Virus record (IMG/VR): IMGVR_UViG_3300032177_000022
Location: 1 to 45,331 of that record
DNA: 45,331 bases
Direction: 5' to 3' (one strand)
Source: a virus
The notes beneath the pieces are model-generated. The model saw nothing but the letters and a program-made list of their open reading frames with translations. It was not told the origin of the DNA and did not search any database. Of this stretch, positions 18,124-42,152 are shown in pieces. Position 1 is the stretch's first letter. Every line of letters starts with the position of its first letter. Both the position numbers and the translations under genes were made by a program.

Positions 18124-18159
18124 AAAGCCCGGCCGGGGGTGTTTCGTCCCGGCCGGACT
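18124..18159 (-). terminator. Terminator-like hairpin after the decoration gene
   Basis: Minus-strand stem of 12 bp with one wobble (18159-18148 with 18137-18126), a 10-nt loop, then only TTT before GC-rich sequence. It lies 19 nt after the stop of the 18179-19381 gene. It could be a leaky terminator or RNA-stability element that raises the capsid-proximal mRNA. Confidence 0.45.
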
Positions 18160-18178
18160 GAAGCAGCGAAGATGGCTA

Positions 18179-19381: not shown

Positions 19382-19437
19382 GTGTGTTTCTCCTAAAGTT
19401 GATTGATTCGTTTTGTCTAGTGGTTATCGGCCAGGCA

Positions 19438-21873: not shown

Positions 21874-23641
21874 CTTTCGACTCCTTCGATTTTGCTGAAT
21901 CTTGCGGCTTGGCCTGTTTCTCATCGTCGGCGTCCTCTTCGTCCACAGGTTCCTGTGCTCCACCCGCCTTGGCCAGCAGATGCGGGATAAGAACCTGCTC
22001 GCGGTATTCCTCGACCGTCAGGCCGAGTGCTTTGGCGTTTACAGCAAACGCCTTGCGATAGTCCTGACCTTTGCGGCCCCACACGCGGGCATAAGTATCG
22101 CAACCCGTCCGCAGGTTGGTTTCATCGGCATTGGCCGCCTGCATGGGGTTCGCCCATTCGTGGCCGACCCAGTTGTAGGTGTGAGTCGGCAGAAACGCGG
22201 CCTCTCGCGTGATGACGCCAAGGGCCTGCCGGACCTCGGCGGGCATGTAAGGGCTTCCGAAATCGTTCTGGCCGTTGACGCGGATTTGTGCGGCGTCGTA
22301 GAGCCACGCGGCCAGGATGGTGTCGAGCACCTGGTATTCCAGGTCCTTGCGGGTTTCTTCCAACAGTCGGAAATAATTCTGCCAGTCGAGGTTGCTGGAT
22401 GAATAGTTTCCCTGGCTTGAGTCGCCGGCCGCAACGCTGTAGGGCAGCCGCAGGCAACGCGCTATCTCCCGCAGGATGGTGCGGACAAACATTTCGTGGG
22501 TGGTCGTCGGCTGTTCCGCCCGCGTCTGGCCGATGTCGTAGCCGTCCGGCAGCGTCGTGACGATGTTCCGTTGAAGCGGGAACAGGTCGAATGGGTTGGG
22601 AACCTCGATCACTTCGTTGGAGTCGTCGGCCATGCCATCGGCGGCCAACGGCGTCTTCATCCACAACGCGATGTCCGCGGCCGTCTCGGCGGCTTGAATC
22701 ACGGCGAGTGTGTATCGGCGAAGCTGGGCGAACAATGGCAGGGCCGCGAGGGTTTCCGGCAGGCCCCGGTGCTGCTCGGGGCGGTCCTGCTGAAACCAGT
22801 GCATTACCAGCGCGGCGGGCCACTTGTCGTATTCCCATGGCGCCCCCATCGAGCCGCCATAGCCCCAATAGCCCGGATGGACGCGGAGGATGTGATACTC
22901 GACCGGGTTTCCGTAGGCGTCCATCACGATGCCATCGACGCCCGGCTGGCTGAGCATGTCCGAGTCCACGAATTGCAGGCGGTCGCTCTCGACGATCCGC
23001 AAGTCGATCTTGACCGGCAGCGGCAGTTTGGGGTTGCCGACCTGAAGGGCGATCGCCTCGCCGTCCTGGAGTTTTGCCCTGGTCATAGTGCGAAGTTTCT
23101 CGACGAGCCTGACGCTACGACACCACCGGGAAAACTCCGCCTCGATCCATTCATCCGCCGCATCGTCACCCGTTTCCATCTGGAGCCGCGGGCCGGTGCC
23201 GATCATGTCCGTTGCAATGGTGCCGATCATGCCGCGGCAGTAGGAGTTGTTCGCCGCCTCGTAGCGAGAGCGGTTGCGAAGCACGTACCGGATGCCGGGG
23301 CTGGCCGCACTGTCGGCGGCCATGCCGTCGGCCCATTGCCAATGCGCGGCGTTGTCGGGCGTGGTCTGTGCTGAATCGAACCGAGCGGCAAAGACGTTGC
23401 CGAACATGCCGGAATGGACGGCGGCGGCGCGCTCCCGCTCGTTGCCCAGGGGCAGGCCGCCGGCGAGTTTGATCGCGGCGGCAAGTTCGGTGTCGCCGGC
23501 CAGGAGGGCGGCGCGTTCGATGTTCATCACGCGACCGACCGAGAGATTGAAGGCGGCGGCCGGGGACCGGCGGGTGCGCCGGACTGTCCGCTTCCTGCCG
23601 GCCTTGGGGGTCGCTTTCGATTTGTCCTTGGTCTTGGTCAA
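21854..23641 (-). CDS. Portal protein, lambda-family, 595 aa
   Basis: The start is TTG 23641, overlapping the upstream stop as TTGA, with GGGAGG 6 nt before it. The protein has the lambda-type portal features: Lys/Arg-rich N-terminus, NNSYCRGMIGTIATDMIG near 132-149, IRYVLRNRSRYEAAN, LVMHWFQQDRPEQHRGLP and ALPLFAQLRRYTLAVIQAAETAADI in the wing and stem region. An acidic/lysine C-terminal tail follows (EEDADDEKQ). The portal ring is the DNA entry channel and head-tail vertex. It is positioned between the terminase and capsid genes as expected. Confidence 0.93.
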   Translation of the reverse strand: MTKTKDKSKATPKAGRKRTVRRTRRSPAAAFNLSVGRVMNIERAALLAGDTELAAAIKLAGGLPLGNERERAAAVHSGMFGNVFAARFDSAQTTPDNAAHWQWADGMAADSAASPGIRYVLRNRSRYEAANNSYCRGMIGTIATDMIGTGPRLQMETGDDAADEWIEAEFSRWCRSVRLVEKLRTMTRAKLQDGEAIALQVGNPKLPLPVKIDLRIVESDRLQFVDSDMLSQPGVDGIVMDAYGNPVEYHILRVHPGYWGYGGSMGAPWEYDKWPAALVMHWFQQDRPEQHRGLPETLAALPLFAQLRRYTLAVIQAAETAADIALWMKTPLAADGMADDSNEVIEVPNPFDLFPLQRNIVTTLPDGYDIGQTRAEQPTTTHEMFVRTILREIARCLRLPYSVAAGDSSQGNYSSSNLDWQNYFRLLEETRKDLEYQVLDTILAAWLYDAAQIRVNGQNDFGSPYMPAEVRQALGVITREAAFLPTHTYNWVGHEWANPMQAANADETNLRTGCDTYARVWGRKGQDYRKAFAVNAKALGLTVEEYREQVLIPHLLAKAGGAQEPVDEEDADDEKQAKPQDSAKSKESKDAVVSK

Positions 23642-23844
23642 ACCGGGCCTCCCGCGGTGGCTTTGGTGAACTTGATCCCGCCACCGATTCGGCTGCGGGT
23701 CGCCGTGGACGGGCGGAACTTTGCGGCGGCGATCTGGTCGGCGAGTGGGTGTTCCTCGGAACTGCCCATGCCTGTCACGGCGATGGCCTTGGGTCCGTTG
23801 GCTGATGCCGCCACCGCGTCGGCGAGATTCGTTTCGTCGGTCAT
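23638..23844 (-). CDS. Small head-joining-type protein (gpW position), 68 aa
   Basis: It starts at ATG 23844 (the frame is open to 23880) and ends in TTGA overlap with the portal gene. The sequence has a short helix (TNLADAVAASANGP), then EEHPLADQIAAAKF and a basic Gly/Ile end (RIGGGIKFTKATAGG). A small protein is regularly found between the large terminase and the lambda-type portal genes. In lambda this is gpW, a head-completion protein, so a related role is inferred by position rather than by clear sequence identity. Confidence 0.65.
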   Translation of the reverse strand: MTDETNLADAVAASANGPKAIAVTGMGSSEEHPLADQIAAAKFRPSTATRSRIGGGIKFTKATAGGPV

Positions 23845-23939
23845 ACCCGAATTGATTACAGGGTAAATCTGGAAAAACAAGAGAAAAATATGCAGAATGC
23901 TAAAATCGTGCTACTGGTAGCGTGGAAAGGCAAAAATCT

Positions 23940-24152
23940 TCATTTTTCGACCGTCCACCACTCGGTGCCGCAATTTCGGCACCAGCGACGCCGACGAACT
24001 GTTCCATCCTCGGTCGGAACCGTGTTGATGACCGTTTTCCCACCCTGGGCAAACAGTACGCAATGGCATTCAGGGCACCTGATGCCAAGATTCGAGTTTC
24101 CCTGGTTGGCCCCCGCGAGCATCTCTTCTATCGGGCGGCGCACTTTTTTCAT
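23940..24152 (-). CDS. Small zinc-ribbon protein, 70 aa
   Basis: ATG 24152 overlaps the terminase stop as ATGA, which settles the start even though a longer frame to 24338 exists. The protein has two Cys knuckles, CPECHC (about residues 26-31) and CRNCG (58-62), separated by a basic stretch (RRRRW), and ends WWTVEK. This is the layout of a compact zinc ribbon. A DNA- or RNA-binding helper next to terminase and portal genes, perhaps a Com-like regulator, is possible but speculative. Confidence 0.8.
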   Translation of the reverse strand: MKKVRRPIEEMLAGANQGNSNLGIRCPECHCVLFAQGGKTVINTVPTEDGTVRRRRWCRNCGTEWWTVEK

Positions 24153-26362
24153 GTCTTGCCTCCGATCTGATTTCTCCGCGCCAGCATCTCGTCGATGCTG
24201 ACTCGCCTGCGCCTGACAACGCCCGTGCCGGTCGCCGCCGCGTTTGGCGCGGCGATCCCCTGCATGGACGCCGCGACCGCCGCGTACACGCTCGCGTCGA
24301 GCCAGTGGTTGTCGGGCTTCTGCGGCCGCAGGGTCCACTCCTGCACGTCGCGCCCATACCCGTGCGTCGGCTCAAATGTCTCGGCGGTGATATGCGAAGC
24401 GAACAGGGCATGGTCCGCCGGCTGACCGTAGATCGTCATCGCTCCGGGATCCCCGGCGGGAGTCAGAAACGCCGCGTGGATGAAGCTCTTCCAGTAGTTC
24501 GTGTCGATGGCAACGTAGGGGAACTCGCGGGTCCCCCTGGTTTGCGGCATATACCAGTGTTCGCCATGGCGCTCGCCGGGCTTCCGATTGTTCTTGTAGC
24601 TGCTCATCGGCTTCGTGCCGGCCCTGATGCCGACGCCCTTGCAGAGCGTGGTGGCGGCGCCGCCGACCTTCCGCTTGACTGCCGCCACGGCGGCCGCCCA
24701 TCTGCCGCCGAGGTCGATTGTCAGCCGCCCTATTCGCATGAGCCCCGCCCCGCCGACCTTGACGTACTCCCGGTTGAGGAGCAGCGGCACTAACTCTTCC
24801 AGGCCGGCATATATGGCGCCGTCTATGCCGCGCTTGGGATATTTGGCCGCGAGATTGCTAGGCCCTTCAGCCACGTCGCGCAGGGTGAAGACGCGGCGGT
24901 TCTGCTTGGGCCAGACGCCGTAGTCCAGGATGTAGCCGGTGAAGTTTGGTTGCCATGCTATGACGACGTACCAGAGGCTCGACTGCTGGACGTCGAGGCC
25001 GGCGGTGATCTCCGTGCATTCAATCGGCACCTCGTTCGCGGCCCGGGCGTTGACCTTGGCCGCACAGGCCGCGGCGGTCAGAATCTTGTCCGCCGCCTCG
25101 GACGACAGCGGGTCGTTCTGAAACTCCGCGGCGAAGCCCGCCGGGCCGTATTTGTAGAAGGCGTGCATCGTCGCCTGCACGGCGGATAGGTTTCGTTTGT
25201 CATCGAGCCGATCCGCCCAGTCAACTTGAGCGCCGCAATCCATGCAGTTTGCCCGCCACTTGCAATCGGGGCAGGATTTGGGCGGGTCGTCCATCGCCCG
25301 GCCGCACTTGGCTTGTCGCTTGCGGTAGAAGGCGAATGATTCGTCCAGCGGCTCATCGGCGCGAAGGGCGCGGTCCCTCAACTCGCGGTATTCCTCCCAG
25401 AGGGCCTTGTTCTCCGGCCAGGAGTAGAATCGCCTCGTCCTCTCGCCGCGATAATTGGGGTATGACTTGCGGTCCAGAAGCTGGTCGGCCAGGTCGCCCG
25501 GGAGGATGACGGTGCAAGGCACCAGGATGGCCGTCTGGCGGTCCGGCCCGGCGAGGCCCTGCACGTCCTCGTTGATGACCTGCAACCGAAACGTGGTTTG
25601 GCCGCCGGGTCCCTGCGACCTCGCGGACTCTCTCGTTTGCGGGTCATCGCAGATGGCCAGTGTCGGGCGGGCAACGCTTCCGTCCGGCATGGACTTCCAA
25701 GCCCCGCGTATGTGGCCTTCAAGGCTATTGCACTCTATGATTGCGCCCGACGCCCGGCTTCCCTTGATGGTTGGCAGGACAATCGCGTCTATCCCCCACG
25801 AGATATTCGTCCGTTGCCCTTTGTGCCGCTGTCCCGGACATTTTCTGCCCTCGTTGTCAATCCTGTGGATCGGATAACAGACTTCGGGGAAGTCCTCCAG
25901 GAGCAGCGGATTTCCCGAGAGTTGGTCCTTGAACCAGGTGATGGCCTTCTTGGCGTCCGCAACCACGGCGCCGATGAGTTTCACGTAAGGGTGCCGCCAG
26001 GTCAGAACGGCCCAGAGCGCGGCGGCCTGGCAGAGCCTCGTCTTGCCGCTGCCGCGGGGCATGGCGACCGCGAGTGTTTCACCATCGACAACCACCGACT
26101 CGATCTTTCGGATTACCCGTAGAAGATCCTTGGACCATTTGTAGAAAAAGATCGCCGGAAAGTATGCTTCACAGAAATAGCGGAAAGATGCGGTGGCCTT
26201 TTGGCGGCGATTGCGGTTCTTGATCGGCGGGATGCGGCCAATATCCTGAGAGAGAAAGGTTTTGGCCCGAATCCTGTCCTGATCCTGCTTGCGCCGGTGC
26301 TTGGCGAGCAGTTCCGCCTCGGCCTTTGTGCGGCGCACCGGCTTTCGTCCCCTTTTGGCCAA
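24149..26362 (-). CDS. Large terminase subunit, GpA family, 737 aa
   Basis: TTG 26362 is chosen: AGGAAGG lies 8 nt upstream and it follows the previous stop by 4 nt. An extension to 26416 would overlap that gene. The ATPase part shows Walker A PRGSGKT (about residues 102-108) and a Walker B-like TLAICDD. A CPDCKWRANCMDC zinc-finger-like insertion lies in the middle. Nuclease-domain acidic residues appear as TAGLDVQQ, IDLGGRW and HWLDAS. The protein cuts and pumps DNA into the prohead. No small terminase gene is recognised nearby, as is frequent for GpA-type systems. The stop overlaps the zinc-ribbon gene start. Confidence 0.92.
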   Translation of the reverse strand: MAKRGRKPVRRTKAEAELLAKHRRKQDQDRIRAKTFLSQDIGRIPPIKNRNRRQKATASFRYFCEAYFPAIFFYKWSKDLLRVIRKIESVVVDGETLAVAMPRGSGKTRLCQAAALWAVLTWRHPYVKLIGAVVADAKKAITWFKDQLSGNPLLLEDFPEVCYPIHRIDNEGRKCPGQRHKGQRTNISWGIDAIVLPTIKGSRASGAIIECNSLEGHIRGAWKSMPDGSVARPTLAICDDPQTRESARSQGPGGQTTFRLQVINEDVQGLAGPDRQTAILVPCTVILPGDLADQLLDRKSYPNYRGERTRRFYSWPENKALWEEYRELRDRALRADEPLDESFAFYRKRQAKCGRAMDDPPKSCPDCKWRANCMDCGAQVDWADRLDDKRNLSAVQATMHAFYKYGPAGFAAEFQNDPLSSEAADKILTAAACAAKVNARAANEVPIECTEITAGLDVQQSSLWYVVIAWQPNFTGYILDYGVWPKQNRRVFTLRDVAEGPSNLAAKYPKRGIDGAIYAGLEELVPLLLNREYVKVGGAGLMRIGRLTIDLGGRWAAAVAAVKRKVGGAATTLCKGVGIRAGTKPMSSYKNNRKPGERHGEHWYMPQTRGTREFPYVAIDTNYWKSFIHAAFLTPAGDPGAMTIYGQPADHALFASHITAETFEPTHGYGRDVQEWTLRPQKPDNHWLDASVYAAVAASMQGIAAPNAAATGTGVVRRRRVSIDEMLARRNQIGGKT

Positions 26363-26366
26363 TGTG

Positions 26367-26840
26367 TCAGCCTTCCTCTTCCGTGAAGAAGCCGAGGGTT
26401 TGCTGGGGTTCACCAATCGGCGTGATGGTTACGATGCACTTGCCGCCGGGGACTACGCCGGCCTTGACTGTATGCAGGTCGATGACCTGGCTGTCATCGG
26501 TGGCGAATATCCACGCCGTCTGATCTTCGTCCTTGGGGCGGCGCTTCAGGGCGTCGAGGAGAGGCTTCTGCCTGTTGTCCGTGTCGATGCTCCGCCGGTC
26601 GGGCGGGCAAAGGGTGATATGGACCTTCAGGGGCCCGTCCACCGGCCCATGGCCAAGGCCGCGAAGAACGCGGTCCACGTCCTTGAGGTACTGCCTGCCG
26701 TCCCGCGAGAGCAAGGCCCGCACCGAAGTCCCGCAGCGCTTGCAATAGGGGCAAGCCCGGCTGATGGGAATCTGCACGTGCCTCGTGTAGTGGTTGGCTG
26801 ATGGGGGCCAAGGTAGTTCGATGGTGATGCTGTTATCCAT
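26367..26840 (-). CDS. rusA: RusA-family Holliday junction resolvase, 157 aa
   Basis: ATG at 26840 has GGAG 9 nt upstream; the ATG at 26858 has none. The order of motifs is that of RusA: LPWPPSANHYTRH at the start, YLKDV, then the catalytic D86-T-D88-N with K92, and the later DDSQV with D115/D116. An extra CPYCKRC zinc-knuckle-like insertion (30-36) is unusual for the family. RusA cuts four-way junctions symmetrically. Here it lies between helicase and terminase genes, so it may clear branched concatemers before packaging. The phage also has a RuvB-like motor elsewhere (38404-39675). Confidence 0.9.
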   Translation of the reverse strand: MDNSITIELPWPPSANHYTRHVQIPISRACPYCKRCGTSVRALLSRDGRQYLKDVDRVLRGLGHGPVDGPLKVHITLCPPDRRSIDTDNRQKPLLDALKRRPKDEDQTAWIFATDDSQVIDLHTVKAGVVPGGKCIVTITPIGEPQQTLGFFTEEEG

Positions 26841-29703: not shown

Positions 29704-30147
29704 TCAAGGCTTCTTCTTTTTCTCGTTTTTCTTCTTCTCCGCCGCCGGCTTCTGGCTTTGTTGCTTCTGCGCAGCCATATAGGCCCGGTGGTAAACCGCC
29801 TTGAACTCGCGGCTGCCCTTGGGGTAGCCGGAGGCCCTGGCGATGGCGGCCGGCGAGCCGGGCGGGGCGGGTCTTGCCGCCGCGGCCTGGTGGGATGACT
29901 GGCCGGCCTGGTGTTTTTCGAGCAGTTCGGACAGATCCCGCCGCACGAAGGCGGTGGCTATCTCGCGGGTGCTGCTGGCGCACTTTGGGCAGGGTCCGGG
30001 GTCGGTGAGGCTGAAGCCGCACCCGGCACAGATGGCCGGGGAGTTGGCGGCGCCTTCGTAGGGTGCCCGCTCTTGGCGGGGTGTTTCGGCTGGGCCCCCG
30101 TCGAGTTCCAGGGCGAGAAGCCTACGTACCAGGTCGGGGTCCTTCAT
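29704..30147 (-). CDS. Zinc-ribbon protein with basic tail, 147 aa
   Basis: ATG 30147 has AAAGG 8 nt upstream and overlaps the radical-SAM gene stop by ATGA. A short N-terminal helix (DLVRRLLALELDGG) is followed by a CAGCG..CPKC zinc ribbon (about 38-56) and a helix (FVRRDLSELLEKH). The C-terminal half has a SGYPKGSREFKAVYHRAYM segment and a very lysine-rich end. Its start region carries one copy of the cassette linker repeat also seen at 31023. Nucleic-acid binding is likely from the ribbon and charge. Confidence 0.75.
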   Translation of the reverse strand: MKDPDLVRRLLALELDGGPAETPRQERAPYEGAANSPAICAGCGFSLTDPGPCPKCASSTREIATAFVRRDLSELLEKHQAGQSSHQAAAARPAPPGSPAAIARASGYPKGSREFKAVYHRAYMAAQKQQSQKPAAEKKKNEKKKKP

Positions 30148-31025
30148 GGTATCAGCCTTTCTTGTGCCCGCATCAGGGGGCCGGTGGAGTGTGCGGCGTA
30201 GATTAGGGCGGGTCGGTTCCATTTGCGGATCAGGTCTCGCCATTCTTGAGGCGGCTTGGCTTTCGAGTCACCGTCACGATAGAACATGGCGCAGGGAGTC
30301 GCCCCTATCTCAAAAACCCATTCAAGCCGGTCAGCCGCGGCGGAAACCGTGTCGCCCCCTTGTCCGATCAGGACATAGCAGCCCACAGCCCGTTGCCGCA
30401 GGCCCGCGTCTCGCAACAGCTCTATGGCCCGCTCTACTGAGTCTTTCTGCTCCGGCGTGTCGAAAGCGGTGTACAGAATCTGCACGCGCATCCGCCCCAG
30501 TCGTTCGGCAAACCACGGCTCACACAGGCGGGCATCAATTCCGCCAGTGAACCGGGCGGGCTTGGACTGCGTTTCCAGCATGGCCAGTACAGCCTCGATG
30601 TGCGGGCGTGGGCAGGCGAGTAGGTTATTGTCCAGGATGTCCCATCCGGGCTTGATAGGAAGCAGCGTCAGTTTGCCTTCTCGCTTGGGCACAAAACAGA
30701 ATGAGCATCGACGGATGCAGCCCCGGCTCGTAATGGTCATGCCAGGCTTGACGTACATGCCGGGAATGAAGTCGCCTGCGGGGGCGTCATAGGCAGGACC
30801 GCCGACGCTGACTGTGTATCCTTGATTCGCCCATGTTTTAGCAAGGCGGTCGGCTTCGGGCCGGTCCCAAGTGAACGTACAGGACACATGCACTTCATCA
30901 GTGCGAGGCAGAAACAGTGGCGGGTCGCCGACGAATGATAGGTTGTCATCCGGCGTGGCGGCGGTTCGGCGCGGAAATACGCGGACGATGTTGCCGCCGT
31001 CGAGGATGGTGGGGTCGGGGGTCAT
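30144..31025 (-). CDS. Radical-SAM protein, 293 aa
   Basis: The start ATG 31025 overlaps the upstream stop (ATGA). A canonical radical-SAM cluster site CIRRCSFC (Cys103, Cys107, Cys110; CxxxCxxC) follows TITSRG. Before it, residues 42-80 (VHVSCTFTWDRPEADRL, then GYTVSVGGPAYD) look like the half-domain that precedes the barrel in B12-binding or elongator-type radical-SAM proteins. Residues after it (FTGGIDARLCEPWFAERL and ILYTAFDTPEQKDSVERA) fit the barrel's later strands. Substrate is unknown. The first codons (MTPDPTILDGG) and the last (STGPLMR..) are shared with the neighbouring deoxyribosyltransferase-like gene. Confidence 0.8.
   Translation of the reverse strand: MTPDPTILDGGNIVRVFPRRTAATPDDNLSFVGDPPLFLPRTDEVHVSCTFTWDRPEADRLAKTWANQGYTVSVGGPAYDAPAGDFIPGMYVKPGMTITSRGCIRRCSFCFVPKREGKLTLLPIKPGWDILDNNLLACPRPHIEAVLAMLETQSKPARFTGGIDARLCEPWFAERLGRMRVQILYTAFDTPEQKDSVERAIELLRDAGLRQRAVGCYVLIGQGGDTVSAAADRLEWVFEIGATPCAMFYRDGDSKAKPPQEWRDLIRKWNRPALIYAAHSTGPLMRAQERLIP
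30145..30188. repeat. Linker repeat I, copy 1 (gene end plus next start)
   Basis: The first 23 bp are identical to 31023-31045. The remainder is the same apart from a 3-nt difference in length and one mismatch. It encodes the end of the radical-SAM protein (STGPLMRAQERLIP) and the ribosome binding site and ATG of the next gene. Confidence 0.95.
30994..31025. repeat. Linker repeat II, copy 1 (gene start, codes MTPDPTILDGG)
   Basis: These 32 bp at the start of the radical-SAM gene are identical to 31461-31492 at the start of the deoxyribosyltransferase-like gene. On the minus strand they begin with the ATG and encode the same first ten residues. Confidence 0.95.
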
Positions 31026-31492
31026 GGTATCAGCCTTTCTTGTGCTCGCCGCATGAGGGGGCCGGTGGACAGCCCAAGCCAATCGTGAAGTAGGTCTTGG
31101 AATGTGTTGAATCTTGTGACTTCTTTGCACGCATGGAACACGTTTTCTTCCGGCCCCACAACAATAAGTCTTACATCGTTGGTACTCAGTCGGCGATGCA
31201 GCATAAAACCAAACTCAACATGCCTCCCTCCGCGCCCCTTGTTTGTTGCTTCTCCTGGCGGCTCAGTAAAGGCTATGAGTGTTCCGGCCCGCCCCATATC
31301 CTCAATGTCTTCGATGGCACACGCCAACTTCGGGAGGCCGTCATTGAGGCCAAGTATCCACCGCGAGGTTATATTACAACCTAGTGATTCGAGCAGGGCT
31401 GCGTACACTTGGAGTTCGGCTCGGCGACTATATCGTGCCGCAAGGTAGATGTTTCTGCTTCCGCCGTCGAGGATGGTGGGGTCGGGGGTCAT
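31022..31492 (-). CDS. Nucleoside 2-deoxyribosyltransferase-like protein, 156 aa
   Basis: ATG 31492 overlaps the HNH gene stop by ATGA; the longer frame to 31666 is a shadow. The protein has the pattern of the nucleoside 2-deoxyribosyltransferase superfamily: IYLAARYSRRAEL near residue 15, a TLIAFTEPPG segment, GRGGRHVEFGFML with the active-site-type Glu, and VVGPEENVFH near the end. Relatives exchange bases on deoxynucleosides or hydrolyse modified nucleotides. In this island it may supply or remove a modified nucleotide; that is inference. Length is normal for the family. Confidence 0.75.
   Translation of the reverse strand: MTPDPTILDGGSRNIYLAARYSRRAELQVYAALLESLGCNITSRWILGLNDGLPKLACAIEDIEDMGRAGTLIAFTEPPGEATNKGRGGRHVEFGFMLHRRLSTNDVRLIVVGPEENVFHACKEVTRFNTFQDLLHDWLGLSTGPLMRRAQERLIP
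31023..31069. repeat. Linker repeat I, copy 2
   Basis: Near-identical to 30145-30188. It encodes the end of the deoxyribosyltransferase-like protein (STGPLMRRAQERLIP) plus the next ATG, so two unrelated genes share one C-terminal tail. Confidence 0.95.
31461..31492. repeat. Linker repeat II, copy 2
   Basis: Identical to 30994-31025. It forms the first codons of the deoxyribosyltransferase-like gene and borders the HNH gene stop. Confidence 0.95.
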
Positions 31493-32025
31493 AGTGCGGC
31501 CTCCTGGAACAGGGGCAACCGGCGCAGTTCCGACTTTTGCTCGTTCAGCCGCTTCCGCAACTGCCCCGTCTCTTTCGGATGGCATCGCCAGCACAGGGTT
31601 TCGTAGTTGTCGAGTCCGCACTCGCCGCCGCCCTCGGCCACGGCGAACTTGTGGTGAGCTTCCCAATGGGATTTGTTGAATCGCAGGCCGTTTTCCCGCA
31701 GAAAGGCGCGGTAGGTCCGCGACGGCTCGCAGGAGTAATAATTGACTCCACAGCAGTAGTATCGCGGGGGCGAAAGCTCTTTGACTGCCTCGTCGAGCGC
31801 GGCCGCGTCAAAGCCGCACTTCGCGCAAATGCCGTGGTCACGCTTGAAAACCAACTGCCGGGCCATTTGCGGCCAAGCCTTGATTCCCGCTTCCTGCTCG
31901 CAGGCTTTGTTGCACCAGGAACGCCGGCCCTCGGGCACGACCTTGCCGCAGTTGCGGCATATCCAGCCGCCGAGGGCCTCGTCGTATCGCTGGCGAGGTA
32001 GCTTTCCTATCCGGCGGGTGGTCAT
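31489..32025 (-). CDS. HNH nuclease with zinc knuckles, 178 aa
   Basis: ATG 32025 overlaps the radical-SAM gene stop by ATGA. The N-terminus has CRNCG and WCNKAC knuckles, then RQLVFKRDHGICAKCG. The nuclease core is HWEAHHKFAVAEGGGECGLDNYETLCWRCH: the HH pair, the Asn of DNYETL and the Cys/His of CWRCH. A 45-residue insertion (SPPRYYCCGVNYYSCEPSRT) splits the domain. It is unrelated in detail to the homing-type HNH at 13274. Possible roles are host DNA degradation, packaging-linked nicking or attack on competing phages. Confidence 0.88.
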   Translation of the reverse strand: MTTRRIGKLPRQRYDEALGGWICRNCGKVVPEGRRSWCNKACEQEAGIKAWPQMARQLVFKRDHGICAKCGFDAAALDEAVKELSPPRYYCCGVNYYSCEPSRTYRAFLRENGLRFNKSHWEAHHKFAVAEGGGECGLDNYETLCWRCHPKETGQLRKRLNEQKSELRRLPLFQEAAL

Positions 32026-32825
32026 GCCGGCTCCTCTCCGTTGACCGGTCCGGCCAAGCCGAGCACTTGTTGGTAGCTATCTTTGAAGCGCACTTTCGGG
32101 TTGTTCTTGAGGGCATTATAAACCTGTCGGGCAGCTTCCGGCGTCTGGCGGGCCTCGATGGCCTTGATGGACTGGCGCAGGTCGTATCGCTGGTCGGGCG
32201 AGAAGCAGGAGTTGGTCTCAAATGCCCACTGCGTCCGCTGGCGGAGTTTGTTGGCGTGGCCGATCCAGACGGTCTGGTTGACGAATTGAACCCAAAAGGC
32301 GACACTGTCGATCAGGTTTTCGATGGTGTCAAGCCAAGGCTCACAGGATACCGACGTGCGGATGTCATAGCGCGGCTCGATTGCCAAGGCATCGAACCGT
32401 TCATCGACTGTCGGCGCGTTTGGTTCCCATAAGCGCCCCACAGCAGGCTCATGATGTGTCAGCGTGAACCGAATTTCGGATTGCTCGCGGGGATATTGCC
32501 GCAACACAGTCACGATACGCTGGACAATCACCCGCTCCGCCTTTGTCACCACCAGCACCATATTCCCGGCATCAAGCAAATGGTCAAGGTACGTCAGACA
32601 GTGATCGACGTTGCCAGGCGTGAAATCATGCGAGGTGGGGAACATGACGACGCCCGGCCACTTGCGCACCTTGGGAAACGTCAGTTCCTCTTTCGCCCAG
32701 TCCAAGCCTCGTTTGGTGTTGAAGCGGCTGTCACGCGCGTAACAATAGATACAAGAATTCGCGCAACCCTTGCAGCAGTTGAAACTATGATTGCTCCATT
32801 CGCGGGTTCCGGTTTTTGGTTTCAT
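32022..32825 (-). CDS. Radical-SAM protein of the photolyase-like (SPL/COG1533) type, 267 aa
   Basis: ATG 32825 has AGGAG 8 nt upstream (ATG 32831 is too close). The site CANSCIYC (Cys21, Cys25, Cys28; CxxxCxxC) lies right at the N-terminus after REWSNHSFNCC, as in spore photoproduct lyase-like and phage Gp37/Gp68-like proteins. Later blocks (VVMFPTSHDF, VLVVTKAERV, IRFTLTHHEP, RTSVSCEPWLD) match the barrel strands of that group. SPL repairs a thymine dimer; many relatives have unknown substrates, so DNA-base chemistry is plausible but unproven. Confidence 0.78.
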   Translation of the reverse strand: MKPKTGTREWSNHSFNCCKGCANSCIYCYARDSRFNTKRGLDWAKEELTFPKVRKWPGVVMFPTSHDFTPGNVDHCLTYLDHLLDAGNMVLVVTKAERVIVQRIVTVLRQYPREQSEIRFTLTHHEPAVGRLWEPNAPTVDERFDALAIEPRYDIRTSVSCEPWLDTIENLIDSVAFWVQFVNQTVWIGHANKLRQRTQWAFETNSCFSPDQRYDLRQSIKAIEARQTPEAARQVYNALKNNPKVRFKDSYQQVLGLAGPVNGEEPA

Positions 32826-32846
32826 TGTCATTGCTCCTGCTCTGCC
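32823..32846. repeat. Linker repeat III, copy 1
   Basis: 24 bp identical to 33428-33451. On the minus strand it holds the end of one gene (codons for AEQEQ and stop), an AGGAG ribosome binding site and the next ATG. Confidence 0.95.
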
Positions 32847-33430
32847 GTGGCGAGGCGGTAGGCATACACCCACACCCACGGGTTTGACTCCCACGGGAAG
32901 CCGCGTTTGGCATTGATCGAGTTCCAGAGTAGGGCGAAGTCGCGTAGTTGCTTGTCCGGGTTGCATGGGTTTGTGGCAATGCCCTCCCTTGCCGCATCGC
33001 CCGCCGGCATGGCCTGCAACCGCTCCACCCGCACATCAGTAATCAGCAAAAACGTCCGCGCGGCCCAGCGGGGCATGTACATGGAGGAAAGGGTGTTGTG
33101 TTTGTAGAGCCATTGGGGCGAGCGGATTGGTTGTTCATCCCACTTGTAGGCATAATTGCCGTCATCCAGATACAAAGACTCGCCCTTCATGCCCAGCATT
33201 AGTGGCTCCCTCATATACCATACGTCGTCGGGTCCGCCGTGGGGCGATTTTGCGCTAGTGCCATCGGGCCAAACCCACATGTCGCCGTCGAGTTGCGGCG
33301 GGGCCATATCTGTTTGTGTTTCGACAAACACACCAAGTCCACGTATTACCCGCCGCGTCATGGTCTTGTGCCCGTCGCGGTTGACCTGGCGGAGTTCGGG
33401 CTTGAATAGGGGGGATGGTAGGGTTCTCAT
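32828..33430 (-). CDS. ASCH-like phage protein, 200 aa
   Basis: ATG 33430 has AGGAG 8 nt upstream within linker repeat III. The pattern is that of the phage ASCH/PUA-like family: FKPELRQVNRDGHKTMTRRVI at the start, DVWYMREPLML, SSMYMPRWAARTFLLITDVRVERLQ, AAREGI, and a LLWNSINAKRGFPWESNPWVWVYAY end. ASCH domains bind RNA or modified nucleobases, and some hydrolyse N4-acetylcytidine. Here it sits between a DNA methyltransferase and radical-SAM genes. The function in phages is not known. Confidence 0.78.
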   Translation of the reverse strand: MRTLPSPLFKPELRQVNRDGHKTMTRRVIRGLGVFVETQTDMAPPQLDGDMWVWPDGTSAKSPHGGPDDVWYMREPLMLGMKGESLYLDDGNYAYKWDEQPIRSPQWLYKHNTLSSMYMPRWAARTFLLITDVRVERLQAMPAGDAAREGIATNPCNPDKQLRDFALLWNSINAKRGFPWESNPWVWVYAYRLATAEQEQ

Positions 33431-33451
33431 TGTCATTGCTCCTGCTCTGCC
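33428..33451. repeat. Linker repeat III, copy 2
   Basis: Identical to 32823-32846. It joins the methyltransferase end (AAEQEQ) to the ASCH-like gene start, whereas the other copy joins the ASCH-like end (TAEQEQ) to the radical-SAM start. Confidence 0.95.
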
Positions 33452-34894
33452 GCCATCGTGGCTCCCCACAGCGGCCCGGCGGCGTCCATCGCGGGGGCCT
33501 GGCCTTTTGGCACGAGGTAGGCGCTCAGCCGCTCGATGGCGTACTGGACGTACTGTGGGTTCAACTCGATCCCGTCGGCCTCACAGCCGAGTTCCAGGGC
33601 GGCTTGAAGGGTTGTGGCGGTCCCGGCGTAGGGGTCCTGGACTCGGCAGGGCACGCTTGGCAGCGGCGGGCAGGAGCAGGAGGGGCGATAGCCGAGAAGT
33701 TTGCCGGGTTCGCCTTGGGCGTTTCCGCCGTTTCTATGCAGGCCCTTACTTGTCTGGCGATTCCCACCCATATTGGCCGCACCGCCCGTCAAATCCTCGC
33801 CGGCGTTGAACTCCTTGCTCGGATTCATTTCCCGCTCCACCACCGGGCTGTACGGAATCCCGCAGGTGGGGCAGCAGCCCTTGGGTGAAGTCGCGGCTTT
33901 GATGAAGAACCGCGGCAATTTTTTGGGAAAACTTGCATAATGACTGAACTTGCACGGCTCCGGCCCCCAGGTCTGGACGCTGCGGGGGTTGCGGGTTGCG
34001 CCGGTGAACTCGTGGTCATGCACCACGGCGTACTGCTCGTCGGGGTCGTCGATGACGCGGCTGTACTGGTTGCGGGCGATCGTCGCGCCCGTGGCCGGTT
34101 CCTTCACCCCGGCGGCGTCGGTGTAGTATTTGTCGCTCTTGACGAACATGAAGCAGTACTCATGCGCCGTCGTCGTTCGCCACTGGCCCTTGCGGAGGAC
34201 GTAGCCGCCGTGGGGGAGGCACTTGGCACATCCCGGGCAGTCGGCCCAGGTGGCGTTATTCCTCGATTCCAAAAACGTGATACCTTCTCGCCGCAAGCCG
34301 TTTGCACCTATGCCCAATCCAATTCCGCCCGCGCCCGTCTTGCCGCCCTTCACCTTCACCTTGCAGCGTTCCCATCGCCACCCGGAAATCGACTGTGGCA
34401 TACAACTAGGTTTTTTCCATATCACGGTGTCCCTGTGCCGCCAGCCGTCGGCGCGGAGGGCGTTCTTGAGCATGTCGGGAATGCCGACGGGCTCGCCGTC
34501 CTGTACGCCCGGCGTGTCGGGACAGGGGGGAGTTAAACTGCCCGCATTCGTGGCTTGCTTTCGATAGGTCGATTCGGCGGGGTTTCCGCCCCTACCACCA
34601 CCAGCATAAGTTTCTCCGATGTTCACCACCAGCACGCCGGTCGGGTGCAGCACGCGGCGGCACTCGCGGAACACCGCGACCTGGGCGGCGATGTACTCAG
34701 CGGGCGTCTTTTCCGAGCCGAGTTCGTACGCCTTCTCGGCGGAATCGGCCTTGCAATACGAGCGAAGGCCCCAGTCAATATGGCGGACTGCATATCACCA
34801 AATGGTAGCAGTCCGCCGGCATCTCCTTGAGGATGGTTAGAACATCGCCTTGATAAAGTTTTGCGCCACCATGATTGAATACTGGGCTTCTCAT
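33433..34894 (-). pseudogene. DNA methyltransferase (N4/N6 type), frameshifted at motif IV
   Basis: ATG 34894 with AAGGAG begins a coherent frame (KLYQGDVLTILKEMPADCYHLVICSPPY), which hits TGA at 34777-34775 immediately after the catalytic SPPY motif. Skipping one T (34777) restores DWGLRSYCKADSAEKAYELG and the rest to the stop at 33433. That includes a C-terminal S-adenosylmethionine site, QDPYAGTATTLQAALELG, as in beta-class enzymes. The intact product would be 486 aa. Motif order (IV first, I last) fits beta-class N4-cytosine or N6-adenine enzymes; SPPY favours N4. It may be a decayed gene, a natural +1 recoding site (TGA C context), or a sequencing error. A central CPTCG zinc-ribbon-like insertion is also present. 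Confidence 0.85.
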
Positions 34895-36136: not shown

Positions 36137-36955
36137 ATGATTACCTATCGTGGCCGGGAGTTCCCCGACGCGCGGACTGCCCGCGCTTCAGTGTTGGAGT
36201 TTGCCGGGCCTGCCGTGGCCGTGGCTGAGGCCGAGCCGCCGATGCCCGTCGCGCCGATGCTCGAGCGCAGGCGGGATGAACCCAAGCGGCGGGCGCTCGT
36301 GGACAGGTATCGCCCGCGGACCCTGGCGGAAGTGGCCGGGCAGCCGGAAGTCCTGGCCGTGTTGCGCGACTTTGCGGCTATGCCTTACTCCTGGCCCTTC
36401 ATCCTGGCCGGGGATACAGGGACCGGCAAAACGTCGGCGGCCTGGGCGCTTGCGGCGGATCTGGGTTGCAACGTGGATTCGGCGCCGGCGGAGTTTGGCG
36501 GGGTGTTCTCGATACCGTCGGGTGAGCACAACTCCGAGGCGATCCGCGACCTCTGGCCGGCGCTCTGGCTGACGCCGTTTGATTCGGAGCGGGGCTGGAA
36601 AGTCTTGATCGTGAATGAAGTCGAGCAGGTAAGCGCCAAGGTCGAATTACTCTGGCTTGACCGCCTAGAGGACTTGCCCCCGCGAACCGTTATCATCTTC
36701 ACCACTAACGAGGTCGAGTCGTTGCCGGCCCGGTTCCGGGATCGGTGTACGGTCCTGGCCTTCGAGGCTTCCGCCGACCGCCTGGACGGCCCGGCGCGTG
36801 GCCTTGCCCGGCAGATATGGCAGCAAGAGACCGGCGAAGAGTGCCCGCCGGCAATCGTGCAAACAATCGTAGATCGTGCAACACAGTCCGGGCGGGTGTC
36901 GTTCCGGCGCGTTGTACAAAACATAGTGCCGCTGCTGGCGGCGAGAGGAAAGTGA
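36137..36955 (+). CDS. Clamp-loader-like AAA+ ATPase, 272 aa
   Basis: ATG 36137 has AAAGGA 11 nt upstream. The AAA+ core resembles DNA polymerase III gamma/tau or RFC small subunits: VDRYRPRTLAEVAGQPEVL at 55-73, Walker A GDTGTGKT (92-99), Walker B-like VLIVNEVE (157-163, with Asn in place of the usual Asp), sensor-1 FTTNE (188-192) and RFRDRC (199-204). The C-terminal part has helices like the lid domain. The first 50 residues are unlike clamp loaders. It may load a host or phage clamp or act with the RuvB-like protein encoded 1.5 kb downstream. The altered Walker B suggests slow or regulatory ATP use. Confidence 0.8.
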   Translation: MITYRGREFPDARTARASVLEFAGPAVAVAEAEPPMPVAPMLERRRDEPKRRALVDRYRPRTLAEVAGQPEVLAVLRDFAAMPYSWPFILAGDTGTGKTSAAWALAADLGCNVDSAPAEFGGVFSIPSGEHNSEAIRDLWPALWLTPFDSERGWKVLIVNEVEQVSAKVELLWLDRLEDLPPRTVIIFTTNEVESLPARFRDRCTVLAFEASADRLDGPARGLARQIWQQETGEECPPAIVQTIVDRATQSGRVSFRRVVQNIVPLLAARGK

Positions 36956-37756: not shown

Positions 37757-38008
37757 ATGGGATACACGAGCGAACTAGACATCATTATCGGGAACCTGGC
37801 CGAGGCTTTCGTGAAGCAACACGGCCTCCGGGCGGATATGACTCCGCTGATCTACAAGGCCATGACCAACGGGGTTCAGGCGACAGTATCGTTTCTCAAT
37901 CGGACCACTGCCGATGGCGATGACGCCGGGAGCCTGCGGCCCTGCCGGGTGTGCGGCGGGCAATTCACTGGGCCGGGGGAGGTCTGCCCTGCCTGCGGGG
38001 GGCGATGA
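37757..38008 (+). CDS. Zinc-ribbon protein, 83 aa
   Basis: A helical N-terminal half (SELDIIIGNLAEAFVKQH, MTPLIYKAM) is followed by CRVCG...CPACGG, a zinc ribbon at about 63-81. The start follows AAGGGACACTGACCT. Its stop (38006-38008) overlaps the start of the duplicated N-terminal fragment. Nucleic-acid or protein contact through the ribbon is likely; exact role unknown. Confidence 0.75.
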   Translation: MGYTSELDIIIGNLAEAFVKQHGLRADMTPLIYKAMTNGVQATVSFLNRTTADGDDAGSLRPCRVCGGQFTGPGEVCPACGGR

Positions 38009-38073
38009 TGGGAACCGCGACCTATAACGGAGTGACCTACGATACGGCCGTGGAAGCCCTGACCGAGGAGTGA
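38005..38073 (+). pseudogene. Duplicated N-terminal fragment of the RuvB-like gene, 22 codons
   Basis: ATG 38005 begins MMGTATYNGVTYDTAVEAL, the same as residues 4-18 of the RuvB-like protein, then ends TEE and stop. Codons 4-19 come from an exact 48-bp repeat (38014-38061 = 38410-38457). It looks like a remnant of a duplication or of insertion of the 38078-38407 gene next to the RuvB-like gene start. It may still be translated as a short leader. Confidence 0.75.
38014..38061. repeat. 48-bp exact direct repeat, copy 1
   Basis: Identical to 38410-38457. The two copies flank the 109-aa gene at 38078-38407. Confidence 0.95.
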
Positions 38074-38077
38074 CCCT

Positions 38078-38407
38078 ATGCAACTTACCCTATTTAGCGA
38101 TGCGACGGATCCGGCGAGCAAGCCGGAAGTGCGGCATACTCCCAAGACCCCCCTTGCCCCCGCCGAGCGGGCTGGCGCCGTCGGGCCAAGCAACCTCGAA
38201 CTAACCCTGCGGGGCCACATTGGCGTGCCTGTCGCCGCCGATGAGCAGTGGATGTGGCGGTGCGAGTGCGTCAACTACTCGCGCGGCATGTGCGTGTTCA
38301 CAAACCGCGTATGCCCGCTGACATCGCATTCGGCGGCATGTGAATCTCACCGACTGCCGGCCAGCGAGCGCGAGATACTCGCCATTCTGGAGAAGCGTGC
38401 CCGATGA
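38078..38407 (+). CDS. Cys-rich small protein, 109 aa
   Basis: ATG 38078 follows a TGACCCTATG junction. The N-terminal half is polar and Pro-rich (PASKPEVRHTPKTPLAP). The second half has WMWRCECVNYSRGMC, then VCPLTSHSAACESH, a Cys/His-rich segment that could bind zinc. A short LPASEREILAILEK helix ends it. The stop overlaps the RuvB-like ATG (ATGA). The gene lies between two 48-bp repeats, as if inserted as a cassette. No family was recognised. Confidence 0.7.
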   Translation: MQLTLFSDATDPASKPEVRHTPKTPLAPAERAGAVGPSNLELTLRGHIGVPVAADEQWMWRCECVNYSRGMCVFTNRVCPLTSHSAACESHRLPASEREILAILEKRAR

Positions 38408-39675
38408 CCACCGCGACCTATAACGGAGTGACCTACGATACGGCCGTGGAAGCCCTGGGCGCGGCGTGGAAGGCCGAGAATCCCGAAGTCGTTTGGGCCT
38501 GCTTCAAGTGCGGTAAGAAGTGGCGACTGCTTCAGGCCGATGGGAGCATGTCCCTGACGTGCCCGAATTGCGGCGCGGAGACCAGCGAAGAGACGGCCCG
38601 CGGCGCCCTGCGATACTTCAACGAGCGTATCGAGGCCGGCCAAGCTGAAGAGCGGAAGGTGGCCGAGAAGGACCGCCGCGAGCGGGCGGCGCGCAATGCC
38701 AAAGCCGCCAAGACCAAGCCCGCCCCGCCCAAGCTGGACGACGTGATCGGGAACCCCGCCGCCGTCATGCAAATCAGGACCGCCCTGGACGCTTTCGCCG
38801 GGCGGCGGGCGGCGGCGGAAGACCCCGGCTGGCTGGCTTTCCCCCACCTGCTGCTGTCCGGGCCGGCGGGGATGGGCAAGACAATGCTGAGCCGGATCGT
38901 AACCAAAGAGATCGGGGCGAAGATGCATCTTCAGATGGGCCAAACGCTCAAGAACCCGGCCCTCGTGGGCGAAATGCTGTTGGCCCTGGACCCCGGCGAT
39001 GTGCTTTTTATCGAAGAAGCGCATGGCCTCAAAACCACTTGCCAAGAGGCCCTGTACCTGGCGATGGAGGATGGGATTCTCGTGCCTGCCGCCCGCAAGG
39101 GACACGCCGGGGACAAGCCCATTGCCTTGCCGCCATTTACGATCATCGGCGCGACGACTGACGAATGGGCCTTACTGCCGAGCCTGTGCCGACGGTTCAG
39201 GTATCGGGTGAGGCTGAAGCGGTTGACGGCGGCGGAGATTGCCGAGGCTATCGCGGGCCTGGCCAAGCGCGGCGGCCTGGACCTGGACCCCGAAGCCGCC
39301 GCGATGATCGGCCAGCGGTCCCTTGGCACCCCCGGCTTGTCGATCAACCTGCTGGACGGCTGCGCGGATACCGCCATTGCCCAGGGGGGCCGGGCAATAA
39401 CCAAGGACATCGTGGCGATGACGTGCGAGATATGGGAGCGGGACTCCCTGGGCCTTGACCGCGTTGCCCGCGACTACCTGGGCTTCTTGCGGGACTCCGC
39501 AAGCGGACCCGTCCGCCTGAACGTGCTGGCTGCCCGCCTGGACGGGCTGAGCCGCCGGACCGTGGAAACAAAGGTCGAGCCTGATCTGGTCTGGCTTGGC
39601 CTGGTCGAGAAGAGCGCCGCCGGGCGGACGTTGACCGCCAGCGGCAAGGAACATTTGAGACGGAGCAAAGAATGA
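38404..39675 (+). CDS. RuvB-like Holliday junction motor with N-terminal zinc ribbon, 423 aa
   Basis: Residues 33-56 form a zinc ribbon (CFKCG, CPNCG), followed by a charged helix. From about 110 the protein is RuvB-like in order and spacing: LDDVIGNPAAVMQIRTAL, Walker A GPAGMGKT (153-160), DVLFIEEAH (199-207; RuvB has DEIH), LPPFTIIGATTDEW (242-255), an arginine-finger region LCRRF (261-265), GQRSLGTPGLSINLL near 305, and a winged-helix end with RTVETKVEPDLVWLGL. RuvB drives branch migration with RuvA; no RuvA was seen here, so the zinc ribbon may replace the DNA-targeting role. It is co-transcribed with a clamp-loader-like ATPase, and a RusA resolvase is encoded in the late operon. Confidence 0.85.
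   Translation: MTTATYNGVTYDTAVEALGAAWKAENPEVVWACFKCGKKWRLLQADGSMSLTCPNCGAETSEETARGALRYFNERIEAGQAEERKVAEKDRRERAARNAKAAKTKPAPPKLDDVIGNPAAVMQIRTALDAFAGRRAAAEDPGWLAFPHLLLSGPAGMGKTMLSRIVTKEIGAKMHLQMGQTLKNPALVGEMLLALDPGDVLFIEEAHGLKTTCQEALYLAMEDGILVPAARKGHAGDKPIALPPFTIIGATTDEWALLPSLCRRFRYRVRLKRLTAAEIAEAIAGLAKRGGLDLDPEAAAMIGQRSLGTPGLSINLLDGCADTAIAQGGRAITKDIVAMTCEIWERDSLGLDRVARDYLGFLRDSASGPVRLNVLAARLDGLSRRTVETKVEPDLVWLGLVEKSAAGRTLTASGKEHLRRSKE
38410..38457. repeat. 48-bp exact direct repeat, copy 2
   Basis: Identical to 38014-38061. It codes for residues 3-18 of the RuvB-like protein. Confidence 0.95.
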
Positions 39676-40261: not shown

Positions 40262-41206
40262 CTATCTCTGCCGCCGCGGGGGCCTGGGCGGGACATCCTC
40301 GCTGCCGGGGACGGGCGGCGGGGGCGTGTTGAAGTCGTGGCCGTCGTCGAAGTCGTCCACCGGGGGCGGCGCAGGCTCGTCGGGGACCTCGGTCTCCGCC
40401 GGGGCTTCCGGCTTGCCGAACGGGATCTCGTCGGGGGCCTCGTCAGGGGCCTGCTCGTCAACAGGGGGCGGCGTGGGTGTGGCAGGGCGTGCCGGGGCCT
40501 GCTGGCGGGGCCTGGGGGCCTCCTTGGACGATCCGCCGGGCTTGGAGGTCTCTTCCCGGGCCGGGCCGAGAATCTTGTCAACGTCGATCTGCGCTTTCTC
40601 GCGGGAAACAACGCGGGACTCGACATAGTGCCGATCGTCCTCTTCCTCCGCCGAAGCCACGCCACCAGTTAGACCGGTATCGCGGAGCGCCCATGCCCGC
40701 GCCCGCATCTGAATCATCCGCTTGGGATAGTTCTTGTAAGTGTCCTTCTTGTCGAGGTTGGCGACCTTGGCGTCTGCCCATTCAAAGGTCCGCACGATTG
40801 GCGAGGGCTGGCCCTTCTTCTTGATCGTGCATGTCCAGGCCAGCGTGCCGTCCACCAGCGAGCCGGTCATTTCCTCGTTGATGTCCTCGATCATGCCCGT
40901 GTTCAACGCCGCCGCCAGTAGGCCGTCGCCCCACAGCGAAGCCCGGCTGTTGATGAAGCATGTGAACTGGAGGGCCTGGGTGAAGCTGATGCCCGTGTCG
41001 CACTTGATCTGGTACAACATCACGATCTGCGACGGGTTCTTGAACTGCGGGAACATGTTCGATGCGATGGCGAACTGCCCGAATCGGAAAACCGCCTCGA
41101 TGTTGGCGAAGTTCATCCCATCCGGGCCGACGCCGATCTCCTGCCGGATTTTGGCAAGCTCTGCCGGCGACAACTGTTCTGTTTTTGCAAGCTCGTTTTC
41201 TGCCAT
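40262..41206 (-). CDS. recT: RecT-family single-strand annealing protein, 314 aa
   Basis: ATG 41206 has AGGAG 9 nt upstream; ATG 41236 has none. The core (about 30-190) fits RecT: a block running into FTQALQFTCFINSRASLWGD, then ALNTGMIEDINEE, a KKKGQPSPIVRTFEWADAKV block and KNYPKRMIQMRARAWALRD. The C-terminal 110 residues are Pro/Asp/Glu-rich and disordered-looking, ending PPRPPRRQR, perhaps an SSB- or partner-binding tail. It anneals complementary single strands made by the exonuclease encoded next in the operon. The stop is 35 nt from the convergent terminator. Confidence 0.85.
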   Translation of the reverse strand: MAENELAKTEQLSPAELAKIRQEIGVGPDGMNFANIEAVFRFGQFAIASNMFPQFKNPSQIVMLYQIKCDTGISFTQALQFTCFINSRASLWGDGLLAAALNTGMIEDINEEMTGSLVDGTLAWTCTIKKKGQPSPIVRTFEWADAKVANLDKKDTYKNYPKRMIQMRARAWALRDTGLTGGVASAEEEDDRHYVESRVVSREKAQIDVDKILGPAREETSKPGGSSKEAPRPRQQAPARPATPTPPPVDEQAPDEAPDEIPFGKPEAPAETEVPDEPAPPPVDDFDDGHDFNTPPPPVPGSEDVPPRPPRRQR

Positions 41207-41342: not shown

Positions 41343-42152
41343 TCATATCGTCACCGCCGCTCTTCGCCCGTAGGGGCAAACGTCGTTCCAATAGCCACAA
41401 AACTTAGGACCACAGAGCCAATGATCCGGCGAACACGGCGTGAAGGCGCCGGCCTCGATTGCCCGCGACACCGCCTCGACTCGCATCAGGAAGGCCCGGT
41501 AAGCCGCCTCCGTCCTCGTGGTCAACTGCGTTTCCAGCCGGGGCCGCTTGCCCCGCACAAGGAAGTCCAGGGCCAGCCGGGCGGGCGCCACGTGGTCAAG
41601 GGCCCGCGCCGCAAGCCCGTAGCACGTCAGGTCGAGGCTCTTGTCCGCAGCATCGTCACCGGGGGCCTTGCCGGTCGTTTTGAGATCCCGCAACGTGCCG
41701 TCGGCCTCCTGGAGGTCTATCGTGCCCGACAGGTCCACCGGGAAGTTCTGGAGTTCCACCGTGAAGGGCCGCTCGATGTGCTTGGGCGAGATCGTCGGGG
41801 CGAGCTTCGCGTGGTGAAGGCCGGCCAGGGCGACAGTGGCGTCGACCGCCTCGCCGCGGGTCCGCTTCTCGCCCATGAACTTCTCGGCGGGGTCAAGGGC
41901 GACGCCTTCCGCCTGCCAGGTCTCATTCAGCTTGTCGCGGGCGATGTCGCGGACCTGCGAGTCGGCAAGCAGGAAGCCGGAGTCCCGCTTGGCTGTCAGG
42001 TCCACCGCCGCCGCCTTGTGGGTGCTGATGCCGACCACCGCCGCCGTGCCGGGGGGAATGCGCAGGCCGTCAACATACCGAAACAGGTAGGCCATGCCGC
42101 ACTTGTCGAAGAGATTTATTTGACTTTTGTGGAGGACGGGCTTGCGGTTCAC
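41343..42152 (-). CDS. PD-(D/E)XK exonuclease with Fe-S cysteines (Cas4/RecB-like), 269 aa
   Basis: GTG 42152 overlaps the upstream stop as GTGA. The fold is RecB/Cas4-like: SQINLFDKCGMAYLFRY at the start with Cys18, GISTHKAAA with His45, GTIDLQEA with D146, and RDLKTTGK with D156 and K158. The C-terminal CGPKFCGYWNDVC has Cys247, Cys252 and Cys259. One N-terminal and three C-terminal cysteines are the arrangement that holds a 4Fe-4S cluster in Cas4 and AddB. It would resect DNA ends so that the RecT protein can anneal strands, as RecE or lambda Exo do. Confidence 0.88.
   Translation of the reverse strand: MNRKPVLHKSQINLFDKCGMAYLFRYVDGLRIPPGTAAVVGISTHKAAAVDLTAKRDSGFLLADSQVRDIARDKLNETWQAEGVALDPAEKFMGEKRTRGEAVDATVALAGLHHAKLAPTISPKHIERPFTVELQNFPVDLSGTIDLQEADGTLRDLKTTGKAPGDDAADKSLDLTCYGLAARALDHVAPARLALDFLVRGKRPRLETQLTTRTEAAYRAFLMRVEAVSRAIEAGAFTPCSPDHWLCGPKFCGYWNDVCPYGRRAAVTI

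Follow-up and report, generated by a model that had tools for sequence, protein, structure and literature searches.

We analysed a virus record from IMG/VR (IMGVR_UViG_3300032177_000022; 45,331 bases, 61% GC), the whole of which is referred to here as the window, and in which several junctions between neighbouring genes are present twice. Open reading frames (ORFs) were called with a home-made gene caller. Between 34674 and 29704 on the minus strand the gene order is DNA methyltransferase, ASCH-like gene, radical-SAM gene 2, HNH endonuclease, deoxyribosyltransferase-like gene, radical-SAM gene 1 and Zn-ribbon gene:

33433-34674, minus strand: N6/N4 DNA methyltransferase, C-terminal ORF with its frame broken upstream (PF01555, E 4e-22; 68% to the relative L016)
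32828-33430, minus strand: ASCH-like or DUF3850-related phage gene, flanked by both copies of linker a (phrog_874, E 2.5e-32)
32022-32825, minus strand: radical-SAM gene 2, PA0069-like (Radical_SAM, E 0.0013, and NF033668, E 1.4e-6, both below cut-off)
31489-32025, minus strand: HNH endonuclease (PF01844, above cut-off)
31022-31492, minus strand: nucleoside 2-deoxyribosyltransferase-like (DUF4406-type) gene, built as S-core-E (low GC content at third codon positions, GC3, of 0.55)
30144-31025, minus strand: radical-SAM gene 1, built as S-core-E (phrog_9298, E 2.5e-27; homologues at 67-71% in L005-L010)
29704-30147, minus strand: Zn-ribbon gene, a conserved flank (62% to L016)

The name ASCH is putative for the gene at 32828-33430, whose homologue laban6-1 is annotated as PF12961, and the deoxyribosyltransferase-like gene matches the DUF4406 protein of Rhizobium phage RHph_TM26 at 41% over residues 12-96. 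Across the window, 4-nt overlaps are shared by 16 of the 55 adjacent same-strand gene pairs. Three linkers, which we call a, S (a start tag) and E (an end tag), each occur twice among these genes, with all three pairs found on the minus (coding) strand, and two further pairs, d and e, lie elsewhere in the window:

33427-33452, minus strand: linker a, copy 1, with the last codons of the methyltransferase (AEQEQ, stop), an AGGAG ribosome binding site (RBS) and the start MTM of the ASCH-like gene; 26/26 against copy 2
32822-32847, minus strand: linker a, copy 2, with the final codons of the ASCH-like gene (AEQEQ, stop), the RBS and the start MTM of radical-SAM gene 2; 26/26
31461-31492, minus strand: start tag S, copy 1 (MTPDPTILDGG), with which the deoxyribosyltransferase-like gene begins; 32/32 against copy 2
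30994-31025, minus strand: start tag S, copy 2, with which radical-SAM gene 1 begins; 32/32
31022-31069, minus strand: end tag E, copy 1 (STGPLMRRAQERLIP, stop), end of the deoxyribosyltransferase-like gene, with an RBS-like GAAAGG serving the next gene; 44/48
30144-30188, minus strand: end tag E, copy 2 (STGPLMRAQERLIP, stop), end of radical-SAM gene 1; 44/48 aligned columns
15366-15391, minus strand: repeat d, copy 1, covering the RBS and the MKRLIL start of the gene at 15122-15379
15088-15113, minus strand: repeat d, copy 2, covering the RBS and the MKRLIL start of the gene at 14841-15101
38005-38074, plus strand: orphan ORF of about 22 codons that copies the start of the RuvB-like gene (repeat e)
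38078-38407, plus strand: gene enclosed by the copies of repeat e
38404-39675, plus strand: RuvB-like AAA gene, its start duplicated (PF05496, E 4e-27; PF05491, E 4e-13)

In all five pairs the copies flank exactly one gene each. Linker a runs across the AEQEQ end with its stop codon, the AGGAG and ATGACAATG. Both copies of S start precisely at the ATG codon of two unrelated genes, and both copies of E stop precisely at the ATGA stop/start overlap of those same two genes, differing by one synonymous change (CTG/CTC) and one additional in-frame CGA codon. The copies of repeat e, at 38014-38061 and 38410-38457, are identical over 48/48 positions. A sequence-only reading of this DNA had reported the a, S and E pairs, all of which we recover where it placed them, its 24 bp of linker a lying inside our 26-bp match; the shared protein ends STGPLMR..AQERLIP and AEQEQ and the shared start MTPDPTILDGG were also correctly given, and repeats d and e are additions to it.

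We found that the shared ends are foreign to the families of the proteins that carry them. The cores of the end-sharing genes are unrelated to each other (blastp, no match below E 0.6). Eight homologues of radical-SAM gene 1 (49-71% identity, one of them in a Phycisphaerae metagenome-assembled genome, MAG) start with M[RKT][IV]AR and lack S, and the same eight also lack E, their tails being unrelated. The deoxyribosyltransferase-like homologue of RHph_TM26 starts with MKLTKNIY where the window gene has MTPDPTILDGGSRNIY, and part of E may be native to the deoxyribosyltransferase-like gene. The methyltransferase ends in GPLWGATMAAEQEQ in the window and in GPLFCGR, without AEQEQ, in L016; among four ASCH-like homologues the tails vary and none has AEQEQ. 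Because the homologues lack the shared ends, the tags are local additions, which is the opposite of what the sequence-only reading had said would count against it, namely homologues with the same tails. The shared protein ends are thus best read as by-products of recombination and not as family features.

Repeats of this kind are not expected by chance. For linkers a and S, 0 chance matches are expected with up to 3 mismatches allowed, and in 60 dinucleotide and 60 codon shuffles no repeat pair of similar score appeared inside 4 kb. Pairs with both copies at gene termini numbered 5, against 0.08 expected when termini were randomly shifted, and none of the 300 random shifts attained five pairs. 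We additionally passed 14 control phages, few in number and picked for convenience, through the same pipeline: 11/14 had no one-gene-flanking pair and 3/14 had one each, these being Island3 (the published case described below), TM4 (a cluster K phage with the ESAS repeats described below) and a Methanoculleus virus. Furthermore, the contigs L012, G009 and L009, which were retrieved by protein similarity alone, also carry one-gene-flanking pairs. These observations bear on an assembly artefact of the metagenomic contig, for which it can be said that the window is an IMG/VR record and that no second assembly of the 29-39 kb region was found; with frames and overlaps intact at every repeat, and the same pattern in the independent contigs L012, G009 and L009 and in the isolate Island3, we regard such an artefact as scarcely credible.

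A further possibility is that the repeats are selected as favourable translation initiation regions, in the manner of cluster K mycobacteriophages, where start-associated sequences (SAS) and their extended form (ESAS) lie beside the translation starts of unrelated genes (PMC3203893). The likeness is real in that the window repeats lie beside such starts, linkers a and d hold AGGAG and ATG, and E holds GAAAGG. However, SAS/ESAS are 13 bp long, present in 11-19 copies genome-wide and placed upstream of the start codon, whereas the window repeats are 26-48 bp long, have two copies at adjacent genes and extend into coding sequence: S is wholly coding downstream of the ATG, e is coding, and E runs into the upstream gene for ~40 nt. 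The many copies at starts that mark SAS/ESAS are not found here, each window linker having two copies at neighbouring genes, while the same pipeline does find the TM4 SAS across several genes. We therefore consider this explanation very unlikely.

A comparison of a filled and an empty site is provided by L012, a fragment of a close relative with 93% DNA identity over window positions 17975-26172. L012 carries a 43-bp linker, TGAACCGGGCCAGGGGCCCAGGGATGAGAACTGAACGATGGCG, twice and identically, at 10140-10182 and 10501-10543, around a 108-aa gene that is absent from the window, and the window has the stop-to-start linker in one copy:

15632-15678, minus strand: single copy of the linker that is doubled in L012 (87.5% over 48 nt)

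On both sides of this linker L012 has different genes from the window, and the two match there at the DNA level only across the linker and the next, lipoprotein-like gene. The L012 copies are closer to one another than to the window copy, and because they agree best with each other the duplication in L012 is probably younger than its split from the window, with homogenisation as the alternative. The gene that follows in L012 is a small ORF that we call holin-like by inference. It matches G009 at 97.6% over 291 bp that begin 5 bases ahead of the ATG and finish at the stop; its flanks are unrelated, a neighbour is 78% identical, and the exchange is ORF-exact. GAACGATGG at the junction of this ORF is common to the window, L012 and G009. 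As a separate observation, at window positions 17675-18073 the first ~28 codons of a protein are close to L012 and L013 and the remaining protein is unrelated, the start having been kept and the body swapped.

The L012 linker also has features that could recall a dedicated cassette system, integron-like or akin to the T4-like PeSL elements, with the linkers as recognition sites: it contains a 5-bp GGGCC/GGCCC hairpin, with a gene between its two copies. Against such a system, linker sequence differs from site to site, folding five linker sequences gave nothing better than their shuffles (z -0.63 to 1.43), for which reason a function for linker hairpins was discarded, and no integrase family match was seen among the repeat-adjacent genes, no genome-wide integrase search having been run. 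PeSLs, intergenic promoter plus stem-loop elements for which a role in gene shuffling is proposed (as described in PMC4503421), differ in the same respect, since the linkers folded here have no stem-loop better than shuffles. Recognition by such a system is more improbable still than selection on translation initiation.

Upon extending the comparison to a distant relative, L016 on contig G009, we observe that the order methyltransferase (68%), Zn-ribbon gene (62%) and replisome organiser (71%) is retained, every gene between the methyltransferase and the Zn-ribbon gene being replaced. Linkers a, S and E are absent from this syntenic relative. The L016 Zn-ribbon homologue starts, like S, with ATGACCCCCGACC; of S only the first 13 nt recur there, and 3 of the 1033 surveyed ATG starts carry them; this link between S and the Zn-ribbon gene of L016 is suggestive and was noticed post hoc. 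Linker a and tag S occur in no other IMG/VR contig scanned, and the IMG/VR scans for radical-SAM gene 2 and the deoxyribosyltransferase-like gene returned no relatives. An 18-mer from E does recur in L003 and L004 at stop/start junctions (ERLIP, stop, ATGA), with genes and tails otherwise unrelated, and we take these matches as chance or shared RBS words. The sequence-only reading had seen in the repeats what looked like insertion or swapping of cassettes, and had proposed to check whether linkers persist where the genes between them change. Its interpretation agrees with tags that are foreign to homologues and with the gene content replaced in L016; persistence of a linker between changed genes is seen at a different junction, window 15632-15678 against L012, and is not seen for the named linkers a, S and E in L016.

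Taken together, we consider it likely that the repeats were left behind where genes were gained or swapped at gene junctions. On this view, an incoming ORF would enter between two existing genes, and the junction, comprising the upstream gene end, the RBS and the downstream gene start, would be duplicated so that the newcomer is left with one copy on each side. The duplicated junction would let both the newcomer and the downstream gene be translated, and survivors would be those that keep RBS and frame. Where the RBS lies inside the upstream coding end, as at an ATGA overlap, duplication would put a foreign tail or head on the new protein. In the simplest history the deoxyribosyltransferase-like gene and radical-SAM gene 1 would be alternative cores of one S...E site, joined in tandem. 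Recombination would most likely be carried out by the phage's own RecT-like annealing protein and exonuclease, via tens of bases of homology or via microhomology at start and stop codons, and the window encodes the following genes for recombination:

40262-41206, minus strand: RecT-like single-strand annealing protein (phrog_561, E 1.3e-10)
41343-42152, minus strand: PD-(D/E)XK exonuclease (PF12705, E 8e-17; phrog_69)
26367-26840, minus strand: RusA-like Holliday junction resolvase (phrog_34, E 1e-28)

Diverged sequences can be recombined by lambda Red/RecET systems, as can, at low frequency, stretches of 5-13 bp, and these systems have been proposed as an engine of phage mosaicism (PMC2327257); the window resembles phages with such systems in encoding a RecT-like protein and an exonuclease. 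We infer the direction (gain), the enzyme and the use of homology; exchange through homology at the linkers is plausible, and the data are compatible with short-homology recombination, with template switching and with tandem duplication plus core replacement.

The last of these can be phrased as a rival in its own right, in which a gene was duplicated in tandem and the middle of one copy was then replaced or deeply diverged, with the ends kept. S-core-E is a whole ORF from ATGA to ATGA, a unit that unequal crossing-over between 4-nt overlaps would copy precisely; however, the cores are dissimilar, and 32 bp of identical S beside unrelated cores excludes gradual divergence, so that a core swap is needed even under tandem duplication. 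Linker a and the L012 linker, moreover, run from stop to start and do not comprise whole genes, and we judge this history unlikely.

Several points weigh against gene gain and swapping. The window's own pairs do not separate insertion from deletion. An empty site was found for the L012 linker alone and for none of a, S, E and e; no close relative recovered here covers the named linkers a, S and E. These linkers are missing from L016, and convergent signal-peptide starts could account for repeat d. The window was picked for its repeats, which inflates the excess of five pairs over 0-1 in the controls, and the home-made gene caller and the convenience controls weaken that excess as well. In favour of gene gain and swapping, when the DNA between the copies is deleted in script, for all five window pairs as well as for the pair in L012, the flanking ORFs stay open, and exact loss is therefore possible.

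An extension of gene gain and swapping, which we hold to be improbable, is that S and E together make up an in-frame landing frame that can be used repeatedly, immediately upstream of the Zn-ribbon gene, where successive accessory cores are captured and the duplicates permit exact loss. If true, the phage would maintain a site for accessory genes in which both gain and loss are built in, and the 13-nt S start in the L016 Zn-ribbon gene would mean that the tag derived from the Zn-ribbon gene.

The closest known event is in the mycobacteriophage Island3, where the last 18 residues of gene 68 match those of the upstream gene, with a single copy in Brujita; the authors called this gp67/gp68 event the first such in mycobacteriophages and linked it to conserved boundary sequences (PMC3029335). 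Our pipeline retrieved the Island3 pair at 58 nt and 91%. As in Island3 versus Brujita, where two copies of a ~60-bp sequence at the 3' ends of unrelated neighbours enclose an extra gene, single genes in the window are enclosed by repeats; unlike that one event at 3' ends, the window has five pairs, some at starts, and two genes that share both ends. The conserved boundary sequences of lambdoid phages (cited in PMC3029335 and PMC2327257) are short gene-border sequences that enable module exchange by homologous recombination and are common to different phages at fixed borders, whereas the window linkers are duplicated in one genome and mostly private. We class the window as a further case of Island3-type junction-duplicating gain, notable for the number of pairs and for both-end tags on two genes; the process was already known from one mycobacteriophage and is unusually frequent in the window phage.

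How single genes are acquired without wrecking dense overlapping phage operons is still debated between illegitimate and short-homology recombination. Junction duplications are legible scars, from which both the gained gene and the stretch of homology or microhomology used can be read, and exact, reversible gene loss is predicted from them; with several cases within one phage group, the question becomes countable over public genomes. They also call for caution, as the ends of phage proteins can be recombination by-products instead of functional parts.

Further observations concern the window and its relatives. No known phage matched the window at the DNA level; its terminase has distant similarity only, to Pseudomonas and Mannheimia phages, and no terminase relatives were found in species genomes. 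The radical-SAM homologue on the Phycisphaerae MAG contig (L078, 68%) is a possible hint of the host. Base composition was left unused as evidence for gain: the GC3 of the deoxyribosyltransferase-like gene fits a recent arrival and the remaining genes lie within range. At 34771-34778, ~4 extra bases in the SPPYW motif break the methyltransferase frame relative to L016 and split off the N-terminal part, which may be a sequencing error. The RuvB-like AAA protein (RuvB_N and RuvB_C) lies near a second, clamp-loader-like AAA gene at 36137-36955. An imperfect 14-bp tandem repeat (CTGTCAATTGCCAA-like) occupies an intergenic gap at 8326-8381, and at the contig end (45118-45331) 15-bp tandem units code NSG-rich repeats (DLNSG, NWNSG). 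Contig G009 has a 148-bp direct terminal repeat (1-148 and 49430-49577, 99% identical), which suggests a complete genome of ~49.4 kb. A repeat in L003 (8865/9193) was rejected as a junction case, the two genes seeming to be paralogues that share an AKAKGE end. In G009, a 59-nt intergenic linker with RBS and start (12590-12644 and 13439-13495, 85% identical) precedes two successive genes. Finally, in L009 a methyltransferase 3' end is present in three copies (85-86%) at successive junctions (1528-1664, 2647-2757 and 3525-3661), which flank a radical-SAM homologue and the following gene and resemble an older stage of the same process.

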